Below are positions 3,492 to 48,165 of a stretch of DNA of 64,000 bases, piece by piece (the stretch's first letter is position 1; the number at the start of each line of letters is the position of its first letter). The translations under genes were made by a program, and so were the position numbers. The notes beneath the pieces are model-generated. The model did not search any database, was not told where the DNA came from, and saw only the letters and a list, made by a program, of their open reading frames with translations. Source of the DNA: Streptococcus sp. oral taxon 431 (GTDB lineage Bacteria > Bacillota > Bacilli > Lactobacillales > Streptococcaceae); contig NZ_CP014264.1 of assembly GCF_001553685.1 (NCBI RefSeq), positions 566,001-630,000 of the forward strand, written 5' to 3'.

Positions 3492-5036
3492 ATGAACATT
3501 CAAGAAGAAATTAAAAAACGCCGTACCTTTGCCATTATCTCCCACCCGGATGCTGGTAAAACGACGATTACAGAGCAGTTGCTCTACTTTGGGGGAGAGA
3601 TTCGTGAGGCAGGTACTGTCAAAGGGAAGAAAACAGGTAACTTTGCCAAATCTGACTGGATGGATATCGAGAAACAACGTGGGATTTCGGTAACGTCATC
3701 TGTTATGCAATTTGACTACGATGGCAAACGCGTGAACATCCTAGATACTCCAGGGCACGAGGATTTCTCAGAAGATACCTATCGTACATTGATGGCGGTG
3801 GATGCGGCTGTCATGGTTGTGGACTCTGCCAAGGGTATCGAGGCCCAAACCAAAAAGTTATTTGAGGTTGTCAAACACCGTGGGATTCCAGTCTTTACCT
3901 TTATGAACAAGTTAGACCGTGACGGTCGTGAGCCACTGGATCTCTTGCAAGAATTGGAAGAAGTCTTGGGTATTGCAAGTTATCCAATGAACTGGCCAAT
4001 CGGGATGGGGAAAGCCTTTGAAGGCTTGTATGACCTCTATAACCAACGCTTGGAACTTTACAAAGGGGATGAACGCTTTGCTAGTCTGGAAGATGGGGAC
4101 AAGCTATTTGCCAGCAACCCTTTCTATGAGCAAGTGAAGGATGACATCGAGCTCTTGCAAGAAGCTGGGAATGAATTCTCAGAAGAAGCCATTCTTGCGG
4201 GTGAATTGACTCCGGTATTCTTTGGATCAGCCTTGACTAATTTTGGTGTGCAGACTTTCTTAGAAACCTTCCTCAAGTTTGCTCCAGAACCTCATGGACA
4301 CAAGAAAACAGACGGAGAAATTGTTGATCCTTATAACAAAGACTTCTCAGGATTTGTCTTTAAAATTCAAGCCAACATGGATCCTCGTCACCGTGACCGT
4401 ATCGCCTTTGTCCGTATCGTATCGGGTGAATTCGAGCGTGGTATGAGTGTTAATCTCCCTCGTACTGGTAAGGGAGCTAAGCTGTCAAATGTTACTCAGT
4501 TTATGGCAGAAAGTCGTGAGAATGTCACTAATGCCGTAGCTGGAGATATCATCGGGGTTTACGATACCGGTACTTATCAGGTTGGGGATACACTAACTGT
4601 TGGAAAAAATAAGTTTGAGTTTGAACCACTGCCAACCTTTACACCTGAGATTTTCATGAAAGTTTCTGCTAAGAACGTCATGAAACAAAAATCTTTCCAC
4701 AAGGGAATTGAGCAATTGGTGCAAGAAGGAGCTATTCAGCTTTATACCAACTACCAAACAGGTGAATATATGTTGGGTGCCGTTGGTCAATTGCAGTTTG
4801 AAGTCTTCAAACACCGTATGGAAAATGAGTACAATGCAGAAGTGGTTATGAGCCCAATGGGTAAAAAGACGGTTCGCTGGATCAAACCTGAAGATCTGGA
4901 TGAGCGTATGTCTTCAAGCCGAAACATCCTTGCCAAAGACCGCTTTGACCAGCCTGTATTCCTTTTTGAAAACGACTTTGCCCTCCGATGGTTTGCAGAT
5001 AAGTATCCGGATGTAGAGTTAGAGGAAAAGATGTAG
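3492..5036 (+). CDS. prfC: Peptide chain release factor 3 (RF3)
   Basis: This 514-residue translational GTPase recycles RF1 and RF2 from the ribosome after termination. The G-domain motifs are complete: the P-loop SHPDAGKTT near residues 17-25, DTPGHEDF near 87, and NKLD near 141. Domains II and III follow with the family-typical [13 protein letters not shown]. Length matches streptococcal RF3. The start is set by the ribosome-binding site AGAAAGAGAAC and the conserved [20 protein letters not shown]. The gene is monocistronic in appearance. No terminator is seen directly after the stop; the next strong one is at 5436-5466, beyond the hairpin repeat tract. Confidence 0.98.
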
Positions 5037-5075
5037 ATCGCCAAAGTTACTTGATTGTGTAACAATCTTAGTAAC

Positions 5076-5248
5076 TAACGCCAAGTTTCTATGGAACTTG
5101 GCTAGGCGCTCCACTAGTATAGTTTTACGAATATTATCGATTCGTAAAACTTTACGTCGTAACAGAAAGGAAGAGAACTAGCTAACTGTCTTACTAACTT
5201 CGTTTGGCAAATAGAATCGATTTGCCAAACTCCGTGTCGTAATCTAAT
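5076..5248. repeat. Hairpin repeat unit I (two or three stem-loops), unknown family
   Basis: This gene-free unit holds three stem-loops. The first pairs GCCAAGTT (5080-5087) with AACTTGGC (5095-5102) around a loop containing CTATGG. The second has an 11-bp perfect stem, 5122-5132 with 5140-5150, around the 7-base loop ATTATCG. The third has another 11-bp perfect stem, 5202-5212 with 5220-5230, around the loop AGAATCG. Stems two and three differ in sequence but stay fully paired. Each is followed by a tail ending GTCGTAA (5156-5162 and 5236-5242). The unit is repeated with changes at 5249-5420. No known streptococcal repeat (BOX, RUP, SPRITE) was recognised. Confidence 0.75.
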
Positions 5249-5420
5249 AAACGGTAACCGCTATGGCAGTTCACCTAAACGCTTCACTAGGAAAAGCCCA
5301 CGAATGGTATCGATTCGTGGACTTTTTCGTCGTAATAGTTAGAAAGTGGTCTAGCTGCCTGCCATTGGAATACTAATTGCGTTTTGTAGCGGAAAATGAG
5401 TACCTTAGTTGGTCCCATAC
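5249..5420. repeat. Hairpin repeat unit II (diverged copy of unit I)
   Basis: This unit aligns with unit I at an offset of about 173 bases. It begins with a weaker hairpin around CTATGG (5253-5275), followed by CGCTTCACTAG (5280-5290), where unit I has CGCTCCACTAG. Next comes a hairpin with arms 5296-5305 and 5313-5322, one mismatch, and the loop GGTATCG. Its tail ends CGTCGTAA (5329-5336), followed by a diverged segment containing CTAGCTG and TACTAATTGCG. The third hairpin of unit I has decayed here. The stem bases differ from unit I while pairing is kept, which points to selection for structure rather than sequence. Confidence 0.7.
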
Positions 5421-5435
5421 CTCAAATCTATTGAA

Positions 5436-5470
5436 AAAAGCCAAGAAAAATATCTTCTTGGCTTTTCTTG
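5436..5470. terminator. Strong terminator after the hairpin tract
   Basis: A 12-bp stem, AAAAGCCAAGAA (5436-5447) with TTCTTGGCTTTT (5455-5466), has a 7-base loop and T and A runs on either side, so it could act in both directions. It is the first clear terminator downstream of prfC, which suggests that prfC transcripts may include the repeat tract. Confidence 0.85.
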
Positions 5471-5486
5471 TAGGCTGGTGTTAACA

Positions 5487-5528
5487 AAATTCCTAAAACT
5501 CCGCCCTGGTGAGGGACGGAGTTTAGGA
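5487..5528 (-). terminator. Terminator of the arginine deiminase locus
   Basis: Arms CGGAGTTTAGG (5517-5527) and CCTAAAACTCCG (5492-5503) form an 11-bp stem with one bulged base. It lies directly after the arcT stop on the minus strand. The following T run is modest. Confidence 0.65.
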
Positions 5529-5536
5529 GGTCTTTT

Positions 5537-6865
5537 TTAGGTCGCTAATCGGTAAACAGCTTCAGCATAGATATCCATAGCATGATAGAGATCATCTAGG
5601 ATTGCATATTCATTTGCTTGGTGTTCCGTTTGCTCTCTTCCTGGGAAGAGGGCACCAAAAGCGACACAGTTTGGCATGGTACGTGCAAAGGTTGCACCGC
5701 CAGATGATAGAGCGGGACTATTGTCACCAGTTTTTTCTTCATAAACCTGCATGAGTGTTGTGACGAGCATACTATCTCTTGCCACGTAAAGTGGTGCTAG
5801 GTAGTCAAATTCTTGGTAGCTAAGTTGGTAAGATTTTGCACACTCTATCAGCTGATTGACAAGTTCATCCTTGTCAGTAAGGACTGGGATTCGGATATCA
5901 ATTCGAATCTCAGAACTTTCGGGAGTAATGATTAAGGCGGCCACATTAAAGGATAAATGTCCAGAAGGCTGGTCACTGATATCACCAAAGATTCCTTTTC
6001 CTTGACCCTCTTGACCAACTTCTTTGGCAAGAAATGTAAGTGCAGGATGGGATTGAATGGAATCAAGGACGGTGGCTAGTCGAATGACTGCATTAATCCC
6101 TTGACTGGCATCCTTGGCATGCTTAGATAGTCCTAGAACAGTAAGGGACTGATCATTTTGTTGATAATCGTAGCCAGCAGCTATTAGAGCTTCTTGGAGT
6201 TGTTCCATAAGTGGTCCTAGATAAGTTGCCTTATCAGGTACGACATTAAAGGCTCCACCTATATCTAAGGCGAGTTGTTCTGATCCAGGTCCATGAAGTT
6301 TGACCTGAAGGAGCCCTTTTTCTGCATAGGTTAATGGGAATGATGAGTCAGGAGCAAATCCCATGCTGGCCTGTTCTTCAAGGGCATTATATCTTGCCAT
6401 GCAACGCCAAAGAGTTTCCTCATCAGTACCAAATATGAAACGAACCCGTTTTTTGAATTGAATTCCTTGGTCAAGTAAGCTTTTGACTGCGTAAAGTGCT
6501 GCAAGAGAAGGTCCTTTATCATCCTGCGAGCCCCGACCATAAATCCGCCCATCTCTGATACTAGCTTCAAATGGAGGAGTTTCCCACTCTGTCAAATCGC
6601 CTGCAGGAACTACATCTAGGTGGCAGAGGATGGCAAGGAGATCCCCCTCACCAACTTCTGCATACCCATAATATCCTTGAGTATCAAGATAGGTTTTAAA
6701 ACCAAGATCTTGACACAAGTCTAGCGTTTTTTTCAGGACATCTTGAATGGCTTGACCAAAGGGAGTGCCATTTTCACCTTCATTGAGAACAGAAGGATAA
6801 GAGATGATTGTTTTCAAACTTTGAAGAAAATCCTCTTTGATTGATTCTGTAATATAGGATTTCAT
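5537..6865 (-). CDS. arcT: M20-family dipeptidase of the arginine deiminase locus
   Basis: This 442-residue metallopeptidase resembles PepV and Sapep dipeptidases. Metal-ligand motifs are visible: CHLDVVP with His82, GRGSQDDKGP with Asp115, the Glu pair of GTDEET near 149-150, and a C-terminal EHQANE. The family hydrolyses dipeptides in the cytoplasm. As the last gene of arcABCD it could release arginine from small peptides for the pathway. The 18-base gap to arcD indicates co-transcription. I infer the name arcT from its position; the biochemical substrate cannot be read from sequence. Confidence 0.88.
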   Translation of the reverse strand: MKSYITESIKEDFLQSLKTIISYPSVLNEGENGTPFGQAIQDVLKKTLDLCQDLGFKTYLDTQGYYGYAEVGEGDLLAILCHLDVVPAGDLTEWETPPFEASIRDGRIYGRGSQDDKGPSLAALYAVKSLLDQGIQFKKRVRFIFGTDEETLWRCMARYNALEEQASMGFAPDSSFPLTYAEKGLLQVKLHGPGSEQLALDIGGAFNVVPDKATYLGPLMEQLQEALIAAGYDYQQNDQSLTVLGLSKHAKDASQGINAVIRLATVLDSIQSHPALTFLAKEVGQEGQGKGIFGDISDQPSGHLSFNVAALIITPESSEIRIDIRIPVLTDKDELVNQLIECAKSYQLSYQEFDYLAPLYVARDSMLVTTLMQVYEEKTGDNSPALSSGGATFARTMPNCVAFGALFPGREQTEHQANEYAILDDLYHAMDIYAEAVYRLAT

Positions 6866-13906: not shown

Positions 13907-15319
13907 GGCTCTATAATATTTGTAGTGGGTAAATCCCCTATAGATATTATGGAGCCTATTTTGTGTAGAAAAAAAGTCCCATAAGATCTATAATGAAAAG
14001 CGACTAAACCATCATTAGAAAGAATCATATGGAACAATTACATTTTATCACAAAACTACTCGATATTAAAGACCCTAATATCCAGATTCTAGATGTTATC
14101 AATAGGGATACACACAAGGAAATCATCGCTAAACTGGACTATGACGCCCCATCTTGCCTTGAGTGCGGAGGTCAAATGAAGAAATATGATTTTCAAAAAC
14201 CGTCGAAAATTCCTTACCTCGAGACGACTGGTATGCCTACCAGAATTCTTCTTAAAAAGCGTCGTTTTAAGTGCTATCATTGCTCGAAAATGATAGTCGC
14301 TGAAACTTCTATCGTTAAGAAGAATCATCAAATTCCTCATATTATCAACCAAAAGATTGCTCAAAAGTTGATTGAAAAGACTTCTATGACTGATATTGCA
14401 CATCAGCTATCCATTTCAACTTCAACTGTCATTCGTAAGCTCAATGACTTTCACTTTAAGCATGATTTTTCTCGTCTTCCAGAGATTATGTCTTGGGACG
14501 AGTATGCCTTTACCAAGGGAAAGATGAGTTTTATCGCACAAGATTTTGATCAGCTCAATATCATTACTGTTCTTGAGGGAAGAACACAAGCTATCATCCG
14601 CAATCACTTTCTGCGCTACGATAGAGCGGTCCGATGTCGAGTGAAAATCATTACTATGGATATGTTTAATCCTTACTATAACTTGGCTAAACAGCTTTTT
14701 CCTAATGCAAAAATTGTACTTGATCGTTTCCACATTGTTCAGCACTTAAGCCGAGCTATAAGTCGAGTTCGTGTTCAAATTATGAACCAATTCGATAGAA
14801 AATCCCATCAATACAAGGCTATCAAGCGCTACTGGAAGCTCATCCAACAAGATAGCCGTAAATTGAGTGATAAGCGATTTTATCGCCCTACTTTTCGTAT
14901 GCACTTGACGAATAAAGAGATTCTAGACAAGCTTTTAAGCTATTCCGAAGACTTGAAACACCACTATGATCTCTATCAACTATTGCTTTTTCACTTTCAG
15001 AATAAAGAGCCTAAGAAATTTTTCGGACTTATTGAAGACAATCTAAAAAAGGTTCATCCTCTTTTTCAGACTGTCTTTAAGACATTTCTAAAGGACAAGG
15101 AGAAAATCGTCAACGCCCTTCAATTACCTTATTCCAACGCTAAATTGGAAGCGACTAATAATCTCATTAAACTCATCAAACGAAATGCTTTTGGTTTTAG
15201 GAACTTTGACAACTTTAAGAAACGAATTTTCATCGCTCTGAATATAAAAATGGAGAGGACAACGATTGTCCTCTCCAGATGTTAGCTTTTATTCAACCCA
15301 CTACAGTTGACAAAGAGCC
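13907..15319 (+). mobile_element. IS1167-like insertion sequence (ISL3 family), intact
   Basis: This 1413-bp element is bounded by imperfect 24-bp inverted repeats, 13907-13930 and 15296-15319, which match at about 18 of 24 positions. Both begin GGCTCT and share TGTAGTGGGT internally. It carries one full-length transposase gene and is flanked by an exact 8-bp target duplication, GATTGTTC. The insertion is at the last base of the trkH stop codon, which the duplication preserves. Intact ends, target copies and ORF indicate a recent insertion that is probably still mobile. Confidence 0.95.
14029..15285 (+). CDS. ISL3 family transposase (IS1167-like)
   Basis: This 418-residue transposase has the usual full length for IS1167. 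Its N-terminal zinc-finger-like region has CLECGGQ (near 41) and CYHCSKM (near 82). An HTH segment, TDIAHQLSISTSTVIRKL, lies near residue 120. The DDE-type catalytic core includes WDEYAFTKGK near 155, ITMDMFNPY near 210 and a C-terminal AKLEATNNLIKLIKRNAFGFRNF with the Glu. No stop or frameshift interrupts it. It runs convergent to trkH, so its transcript would read toward the trkH 3' end. Confidence 0.97.
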   Translation: MEQLHFITKLLDIKDPNIQILDVINRDTHKEIIAKLDYDAPSCLECGGQMKKYDFQKPSKIPYLETTGMPTRILLKKRRFKCYHCSKMIVAETSIVKKNHQIPHIINQKIAQKLIEKTSMTDIAHQLSISTSTVIRKLNDFHFKHDFSRLPEIMSWDEYAFTKGKMSFIAQDFDQLNIITVLEGRTQAIIRNHFLRYDRAVRCRVKIITMDMFNPYYNLAKQLFPNAKIVLDRFHIVQHLSRAISRVRVQIMNQFDRKSHQYKAIKRYWKLIQQDSRKLSDKRFYRPTFRMHLTNKEILDKLLSYSEDLKHHYDLYQLLLFHFQNKEPKKFFGLIEDNLKKVHPLFQTVFKTFLKDKEKIVNALQLPYSNAKLEATNNLIKLIKRNAFGFRNFDNFKKRIFIALNIKMERTTIVLSRC

Positions 15320-18387: not shown

Positions 18388-18490
18388 GTAGTTTCGCTGA
18401 TTTACTTCAAACCTGTTGTGAGGTAAGTTAACGACGCCTTAACCACGCTGTTTGCTGAGCTTGACTCCGGGCAGTGTGGCTATTTTTTTG
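18388..18490 (+). ncRNA. Structured leader or small RNA ending in a terminator, upstream of trmL
   Basis: The roughly 100-base segment between a strong promoter and trmL folds into several hairpins: ACCT-AGGT (18411-18424), GTTAA-TTAAC (18427-18443), and a terminator with CCACGCTG (18443-18450) paired to CAGTGTGG (18472-18479), followed by TATTTTTTT. Transcription would mostly stop before trmL, so this is either an attenuator controlling trmL or an independent small RNA. I do not recognise a named family; it lacks T-box and FMN or preQ1 riboswitch motifs. Confidence 0.6.
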
Positions 18491-19054: not shown

Positions 19055-19068
19055 GTTATCATAAAGGG

Positions 19069-19296
19069 GTCTTCAGGGCTGGGTGTAATTCCCGACCGGC
19101 GGTGACTTTTACTCGGAAATGTTCTTTTCCTTTTATACTTTGTTGCCAAGCTTTGCCTAACCAAAAGTTATGCCTACAGCTTGTCGCCTAGTCTAAAAGA
19201 AAAATCTCCATTTCCTTACTCTAAAAGAAGTCCGCGAGCGCAAGCTGATGTGGTGAGATTCCACAACCGACAGTATAGTCTGGATGGGAGAAGACG
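19069..19296 (+). promoter_or_regulatory. FMN riboswitch (RFN element)
   Basis: The conserved RFN blocks are all present: CTTCAGGGCTGGGTG at the 5' side, TTCCCGACCGGCGGTGA near 19089-19105, AGTCCGCGAGCG near 19229, and GGTGAGATTCCACAACCGAC followed by AGTCTGGATGGGAGAAGA near 19252-19295. The variable arm between blocks is long, about 120 bases. It binds flavin mononucleotide. A hairpin at about 19292-19313 followed by a T run at 19325-19331 is a possible expression platform for termination. The element precedes ribU, consistent with repression of riboflavin uptake when FMN is plentiful. Confidence 0.97.
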
Positions 19297-19457
19297 AAAG
19301 AATGACTTTGTCTATTCTAATTGATTTTTTTATAGGTAAATTGCAACCGCTTGCTTAAACAGAGTGAGGGGAAACTTTTGGAATATAAAAATAGAGGGTA
19401 GATAGAGGAATCCTTTCCAACTTCTTCTGATTTTATAGAAAATTGGAGGAACCTGTT

Positions 19458-47767: not shown

Positions 47768-48165
47768 TGTGCAATTTTTGGATAATCGCGTGAAGAGAGT
47801 TTCTTTTCATGAGGAAAGTCCATGCTAGCACAGGCTGTGATGCCTGTAGTGTTTGTGCTAGGCGAAACCATAAGCCTAGGGACGAGAAATCGTTACGGCA
47901 GTTGAAATGGCTAAGTCTTAGGATATGTCAGAGTAGACTTGAAAGTGCCACAGTGACGGAGTCTCTCTGGAAACAGAGAGAGTGGAACGCGGTAAACCCC
48001 TCAAGCTAGCAACCCAAATTTTGGTCGGGGCATGGAGTGCGCGGAAACGAACGTAGTACTCTGACTGCTAGCAGCTAGAGCTGCTAGTGGTAGACAGATG
48101 ATTATCGAAGGAAGTGGTCCTAGTCACTTCTGGAACAAAACATGGCTTATAGAAAATTGCATATA
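47768..48165 (+). ncRNA. rnpB: RNase P RNA, class B
   Basis: RNase P RNA is the catalytic subunit that matures tRNA 5' ends. The roughly 398-base sequence shows the core: GAGGAAAGTCCATGCTAGCAC (CR-I) near 47811, GTGCCACAGTGACGGAG and GAAACAGAGAGAGTGGAACGCGGTAAACCCC in the middle, and ACAGATGATTATCGAAGGAA near the 3' end (CR-V). The ends pair as GCAATTTT (47771-47778) with AAAATTGC (48153-48160), forming P1. The type is Bacillus-like (B). A terminator follows directly. Confidence 0.97.

Follow-up and report, generated by a model that had tools for sequence, protein, structure and literature searches.

REP/BIME sequences associated with RAYT (Y1) proteins are palindromes with conserved unpaired foot motifs that occur in inverted pairs and are located after genes, and integron attC sites conserve structure over stem sequence and carry unpaired landmark bases. 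For streptococci, the consulted sections of PMC3049150 describe BOX, RUP, SPRITE and the BOX-type repeats of Streptococcus suis, which its authors regard as parasitic elements. According to these sections, BOX repeats occur in S. pneumoniae and S. mitis with related types in S. suis and are nearly absent elsewhere, RUP measures ~107 bp at about 27.5% GC, and SPRITE consists of an 18-bp duplex followed by a U-rich tract (PMC3049150). We found no account of the stop-abutting repeat family described below in the portions of the open-licence literature consulted, including PMC2267715, PMC3675131 and PMC6212727.

We analyzed a window of 64,000 nucleotides from Streptococcus sp. oral taxon 431 (NZ_CP014264.1, positions 566,001–630,000). 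Direct reading of the sequence resolves positions 5037–5336 of the window into three copies, one complete and two shortened, of a unit of ~125 nt (127 nt for unit 1), beginning immediately 3′ of the stop codon of an ORF that we take to be prfC, a name adopted from the initial annotation (Table 1). That annotation had reported three hairpins in this tract, which correspond to the hairpins H2 of units 1, 2 and 3. Its loops ATTATCG, AGAATCG and GGTATCG read as given, the CTATGG-type hairpin it placed ahead of the first and third is the hairpin H1, and its 173-base spacing corresponds to an 87-nt direct repeat with 70% identity. The stems are real but longer than the 11 bp described, with 16 nt in each arm and 1, 3 and 2 non-Watson-Crick positions in units 1, 2 and 3 (one of the two in the third H2 being G.T). 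Two of the GTCGTAA motifs said to follow the hairpins stand where they were placed, and the third lies at 5329–5335, one base off. The tract is structured as proposed, but its start directly after the stop codon, its outer stem and the hairpin H0 had been missed.

Table 1. Features of the tract behind prfC, in window coordinates.
Feature	Position	Strand	Basis
TAG stop codon of upstream ORF (presumed prfC)	5034–5036	+	Sequence; ORF 3492–5036; unit 1 directly after
Unit 1, complete: outer stem, H0, H1, CTCCACTA, H2, GTCGTAA	5037–5163	+	
Three-way junction of unit 1; outer stem CGCC 5039–5042 with GGCG 5105–5108, H0 and H1 inside	5039–5108	+	Minimum-energy fold on both strands; outer-stem matching across the family
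H0 hairpin, unit 1	5045–5076	+	Fold; covarying in obg copies
H1 hairpin, unit 1 (CTATGG loop region)	5080–5102	+	Fold
H2, unit 1; arms of 16 nt, loop ATTATCG 5133–5139, CTCCACTA 5109–5116 just before	5117–5155	+	Covariance-model match 5101–5163, 78.6 bits; copy in model seed
GTCGTAA tail, unit 1	5156–5162	+	Sequence
Unit 2, shortened (without H0 and 5′ part of H1); H2 5197–5235, loop AGAATCG 5213–5219, tail GTCGTAA 5236–5242	5163–5242	+	Covariance-model match 5181–5243, 73.5 bits; in seed
Unit 3, shortened (without H0); H1 5253–5275, H2 5290–5328, loop GGTATCG 5306–5312, tail GTCGTAA 5329–5335	5243–5335	+	Covariance-model match 5274–5336, 77.2 bits; in seed
Probable decayed remnant of a further unit	5336–5420	+	By eye, likeness to units of related arrays
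Inverted repeat AAAAGCCAAGAA/TTCTTGGCTTTT, a probable terminator of the convergent genes on either side; outside the family	5436–5466	.	Repeat analysis of the window

The hairpins of the tract are real and exceed chance. As DNA, the + strand of unit 1 folds at −30.4 kcal/mol compared with −10.3 ± 2.4 for 200 dinucleotide shuffles (z −8.5) and the − strand reaches the same z of −8.5; as RNA the z values are −7.1 (+ strand) and −6.0 (− strand), and both chemistries give the three-way junction followed by H2. The shortened units 2 and 3 fold less strongly (z −1.5 to −3.9, depending on strand and chemistry). At gathering score, Rfam yields four matches in the window and none at 5037–5336, in agreement with the initial annotation, which assigned the tract to no known family; the four are Srn266 (13907–14016, − strand), the 23S-methyl motif (18391–18486), an FMN riboswitch (19065–19299) and RNase P class B (47774–48154). 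A degraded IS end or gene remnant was rejected on the grounds that no ORF of ≥60 aa lies inside the tract and that its architecture recurs genus-wide; one antisense ORF overlaps the first 29 bases.

Comparison with the described streptococcal families was made on their descriptions in the consulted sections of PMC3049150, which the tract does not fit for RUP or SPRITE, as had been noted from the sequence: unit 1 is 127 nt long and the H2 regions of the window have 38–44% GC, unlike RUP, and H2 is followed by GTCGTAA with no T tract, unlike SPRITE. The unit family resembles BOX of S. pneumoniae and the BOX-type repeats of S. suis (RepSU1; boxA–F), which in the same sections are likewise small, modular, strongly folding intergenic repeats with a variable number of inner modules, a resemblance at the level of description rather than of sequence models that does not establish membership. 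The stop-abutting arrays are without BOX-like ends, terminal modules with inverted ends around the inner modules were not found there with the motifs given below, and BOX is limited in range in the parts of PMC3049150 consulted, whereas the unit family occurs in 117 of 147 Streptococcus genomes. Using motifs taken in part from the loci and not from a published model, we found GATAYTTTC upstream of none of 46 stop-abutting loci and of 23 of 97 others, and ATACTC upstream of 3 of the 46 and 11 of the 97; ATACTC, GAGTAT, GATACTTTC and GAAAGTATC, motifs of the same origin, were all absent from window positions 4700–5800. The GATAYTTTC-like left end and the start of larger unit-bearing elements presumably resemble BOX ends. 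That the window tract is a copy of BOX, RUP or SPRITE was thus rejected on described features, not on sequence models.

Across the family, the unit reads TRAC-[outer]-A-H0-AC-H1-TA-[outer′]-CYTNACTA-H2-GTCGYAA, with shortened copies frequent, and H2 is a 16-bp hairpin with loop NNNATCG, preceded by CYTNACTA and followed by GTCGYAA. In 120 unique H2s (129 matches from 83 sources) the unpaired CTA, ACTA (or ATTA), loop ATCG and GTCG are almost fixed, a conservation partly favored by the search, as the model prefers copies that keep them. The helices of the family covary and are Watson-Crick. Alignment A1 contains 89 double-changed cells compared with 23.7 after shuffling, and the outer stems are diverse across units (GTAGC/GCTAC, TCGAC/GTCGA, AGAGG/CCTCT, GGGGC/GCCCC and others) with arms that match within each unit. 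The mean outer-stem score is 3.65 versus 1.18 ± 0.14 with arms shuffled among units (n = 88 of the 120 units, those with H0 and H1 passing filters) and 3.40 versus 1.09 ± 0.15 for 71 distinct units; the outer-stem claim rests on this arm shuffling, alignment A5 being out of register there (45% paired) and the stem being nearly invariant in alignment A4. In the first units behind obg in eight genomes, 25 of 43 pairs are changed on both sides, compared with 10.4 after shuffling and ≤5 in slid controls; this set came from 30 obg 3′ ends, ten of which start with a TTGG-like or CTGGAT motif, with two omitted (one nearly identical to another and damaged in its tail, the other laid out differently). 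A short foot helix, YTNAC/GYAA, received no support from column counts and was rejected.

Units of the same architecture are also found inside larger elements elsewhere. Those with TGATACTTTC..GAAAGTATC-like ends at loci L081, L082, L101, L107 and in genomes G036 and G098 combine a unit with more hairpin modules, and several of them carry a second, inverted unit nearby; inverted unit pairs occur in both G036 and G098. A second hairpin module beside units gives sub-gathering matches on either strand to the S. pyogenes sRNA SSRC8_2 (Rfam RF02616) at L108 2171–2274, L090 1441–1514 and L081 1574–1637, with the unit itself unmatched.

A covariance model, R1, seeded with 21 H2s with flanks picked from 58 distinct ones (window array, argS array and related loci), matches at E ≤ 0.001 in 117 of 147 Streptococcus genomes, and the covarying copies at other loci for which the initial annotation had proposed such a search are thus found at many loci. 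Among 198 genomes sampled across the order, R1 matches 22, all Streptococcus, one of 54 genera, with no match in the 53 other genera sampled. The genome of origin has 10 matches at five places: three behind prfC, four in the argS array, and single matches between grpE and dnaK, behind dnaK and at 750956. Genome G098 has 73 matches at E ≤ 0.01. An exact motif pattern run over genomes of 84,980 species found at least 115 stretches, and the 80 among the matches listed are all in Streptococcus. The same pattern was not found in viral contigs, and searches of phages and plasmids with the window array, and likewise with an embedded unit copy, gave no match; carriage as phage or plasmid cargo was rejected on these results.

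The window tract is probably a short tandem array of genus-wide, non-autonomous, palindromic mobile DNA repeats, and the family looks less like a new RNA gene than like an unlabeled group of small mobile DNA elements. This reading is based on the conserved covarying architecture, the many copies in some genomes, the stop-abutting arrays at unrelated genes and the recurrence of the unit within larger elements.

The pattern of mismatches bears on whether the fold is kept as RNA or as DNA. RNA helices evolve via G-U pairs and do not tolerate A.C. On the sense strand of the 120 unique H2s, 26 of 1909 cells are G.T and 62 are A.C, compared with 356 G.T and 4 A.C of 2990 cells on the sense strand of Streptococcus RNase P (30 distinct sequences), a control somewhat biased to G.T because the structure-predicting program permits G-U. 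The antisense RNase P control gives 142 G.T and 44 A.C of 2420 cells, and 22 and 44 among varying pairs. Counted once per cluster and column, 253 H2s give 28 G.T versus 53 A.C (p = 0.007), with equal numbers in singleton H2s (15 and 14), and the other helices lean the same way (G.T/A.C 3/19 in H0, 8/47 in H1, where a bulge inflates the count, and 9/13 in the outer stem). The excess of A.C over G.T in H2 is the opposite of RNase P, and the sense strand therefore seems not to be maintained as RNA; a sense-strand RNA with compensatory pairs was rejected as the main reading on this test. Of the folded RNA or single-stranded DNA structure first suggested for the tract, the DNA hairpin or palindrome remains. 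The slight A.C excess would be wobble on the complementary strand, both kinds of mismatch are rare, and pairing is almost exclusively Watson-Crick, which is what a DNA palindrome would show.

Such clean pairing could also have a passive origin. If the repeats were inert palindromes left by a one-time spread, template-switch correction rather than selection would keep their arms perfect, and the 48 double Watson-Crick changes within near-identical hairpin clusters, together with few wobble steps, fit correction in one event; decayed remnants at array ends agree with such debris. We nevertheless consider this account improbable: the unpaired CTA, ACTA, ATCG and GTCG are conserved to the same degree as the pairs, if partly through a model search that favors such copies, and correction of arms alone therefore does not explain them.

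Arrays of the family keep a near-constant distance from stop codons. The covariance-model match starts 54–67 nt past the stop in 143 of 180 arrays and in 16 of 28 gene families, so that in these 143 no more than a few bases separate the start of the unit from the stop codon. The 180 arrays are those with a same-strand ORF of ≥100 aa ending ≤300 nt upstream, arrays without one being excluded, and they include many orthologues (prfC 65, argS 46); among 160 groups of an overlapping set, 73 have no ORF (60 aa) within 190 nt, and many arrays without a nearby upstream ORF sit, as judged by eye, in larger elements or behind other modules. Where the outer stem is clear (31 stop-abutting units), its start lies from 8 nt upstream to 4 nt downstream of where the stop codon ends, within an examined range of −8 to +6. 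The upstream genes include pheS, obg, nrdE, ruvA and a PTS IIAB gene by NCBIfam and, presumably, argS, ftsX, parE, groEL, infB, grpE and dnaK, which we named from their C-termini. Of 106 named arrays with an upstream ORF among the matches listed, nearly all at prfC or argS, 105 share the strand of that ORF.

This spacing and orientation, the maintenance of obg units with compensatory changes and the strong sense-strand RNA fold (z −7.1) are what one would expect of a functional 3′UTR element that guards the 3′ end of the mRNA, sets the pace of terminating ribosomes or insulates neighboring genes and is selected at prfC, argS, obg, pheS and other genes. We regard such an element as unlikely overall, as G.T is rarer than A.C, unlike in RNase P, and units away from stops have no preferred orientation (of 52 with a nearest upstream ORF, 24 have it on their own strand and 28 on the opposite one; 47 have no 100-aa ORF). 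Furthermore, the unit content of arrays differs among strains and the array is missing behind prfC and obg in several species, where empty ends exist.

The stop codon itself appears tied to the repeat. Many units that do not lie next to genes also have TRAC ahead of the outer stem, and the stop codon therefore looks like part of the element; TRAC at left ends may reflect insertion by TAA duplication at each unit. In prfC and argS first units, TTCAG/TTCAA types carry TGA in 36 of 36 cases and ATCG-like types in 0 of 46, with mixed results for CTCAG (7 TAA, 4 TGA) and TTCGTT (3 TAA, 2 TGA), a linkage that, given the similarity of the two gene ends, could also arise by recombination between them. 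A bolder reading, which we advance tentatively, is that the units belong to an undescribed class of folded single-strand DNA that captures stop codons, in which an enzyme would read the three-way junction and the ATCG-loop hairpin and insert the element at gene 3′ ends. Under stop capture, the element's first bases would become the gene's stop, which would account at once for the orientation, for the spacing close to zero and for stop codons that mostly go with the unit type; from the weak strand asymmetry (A.C over G.T, 53 to 28), the strand that folds would be the complementary one.

Insertion is most directly indicated at pheS in locus L391, a single case within one group of relatives. Among 30 genomes searched, pheS is followed by an array in 13 and by an array remnant in one (G121); all 14 genes end ...SEQF* and encode PheS proteins 98–100% identical to the query, whereas of the 16 others 11 end ...QFK*, three end otherwise and two, arrayless, also end in F. 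At L391, the distal end of the array, just ahead of the following gene, carries AGTTCAAATAG, and AGTT flanks the array on either side; AGTTCAAATAG looks like the displaced native pheS end, as expected of ...AG-TTC-AAA-TAG. The 14 cases may represent a single event, and no clean pair of empty and occupied sites was found among near-identical strains. Units behind obg keep their position and fold across Obg proteins 84–100% identical, which can equally mean host function. Mobile palindromic DNA is the best-supported reading and a 3′UTR role adopted by the host its main rival, and both could hold, one after the other.

As mobile repeats, the elements would move as DNA, with a folded single strand or cruciform recognized by a recombinase or transposase encoded elsewhere. 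The left end, TRAC with the outer stem, would take the place of the entered gene's stop codon or overlap it, so that insertions at the very 3′ end of genes would survive; arrays may then grow, shrink and swap units through recombination. The units share with REP/BIME their palindromes, conserved unpaired motifs, inverted pairs and position behind genes, and differ from them in having a three-way junction rather than a single hairpin, near-constant spacing from the stop codon and, among the units listed, no linked Y1 gene. The genome of origin has no Y1 transposase (PF01797) match, and in the five of six genomes with PF01797 matches none is adjacent to a unit among the units listed, the nearest being ~2 kb away; Y1/RAYT linkage was accordingly rejected, and we identified no transposase or other mobilizing enzyme for the units.

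Chimeric H2s, whose left and right arms are of different types, occur in mitis-type arrays and suggest exchange around the ATCGAT centre. Exchange of this kind, variable downstream genes and the combination of conserved structure, free stem sequence and small unpaired landmark motifs, shared with attC, recall integron-like sites, where a recombinase acting on folded single-stranded DNA would insert and shuffle cassettes with exchange near TAAC/GTCGYAAC. We think it improbable that the units work this way, as the motif search returns one array per named locus (115 among the matches listed, most of 8 kb) with no gene between units, no cassettes were seen, attC boxes were not recognized by eye, and ordinary recombination also gives chimeras.

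The units form an unlabeled genus-wide repeat family set against the stop codons of housekeeping genes, argS, obg, pheS, dnaK and groEL among them, which may redraw gene 3′ ends and serve as recombination points, and which offers a test bed for how small gene-less folded repeats move and choose gene ends.

Other, simple hairpins likewise start at or contain a stop codon (TAGAAAAGGTCC..GGACCTTTTCTA, TAACAACAGTCC..GGACTGTTGTTA and TGATACAGTC..GACTGTATCA), at the prfC 3′ ends of L252, L253, L254 and L255 and the obg 3′ ends of L423–L427 and L434, and overlap with stop codons is therefore not confined to the unit family. Behind the arrays, the first ORF of ≥110 aa varies among strains (loci L110–L224, by crude ORF calling): 37 prfC loci fall into 14 similarity groups, six of them single, and 27 argS loci into six, and as these downstream ORFs differ between strains, the prfC and argS arrays sit at synteny breakpoints.
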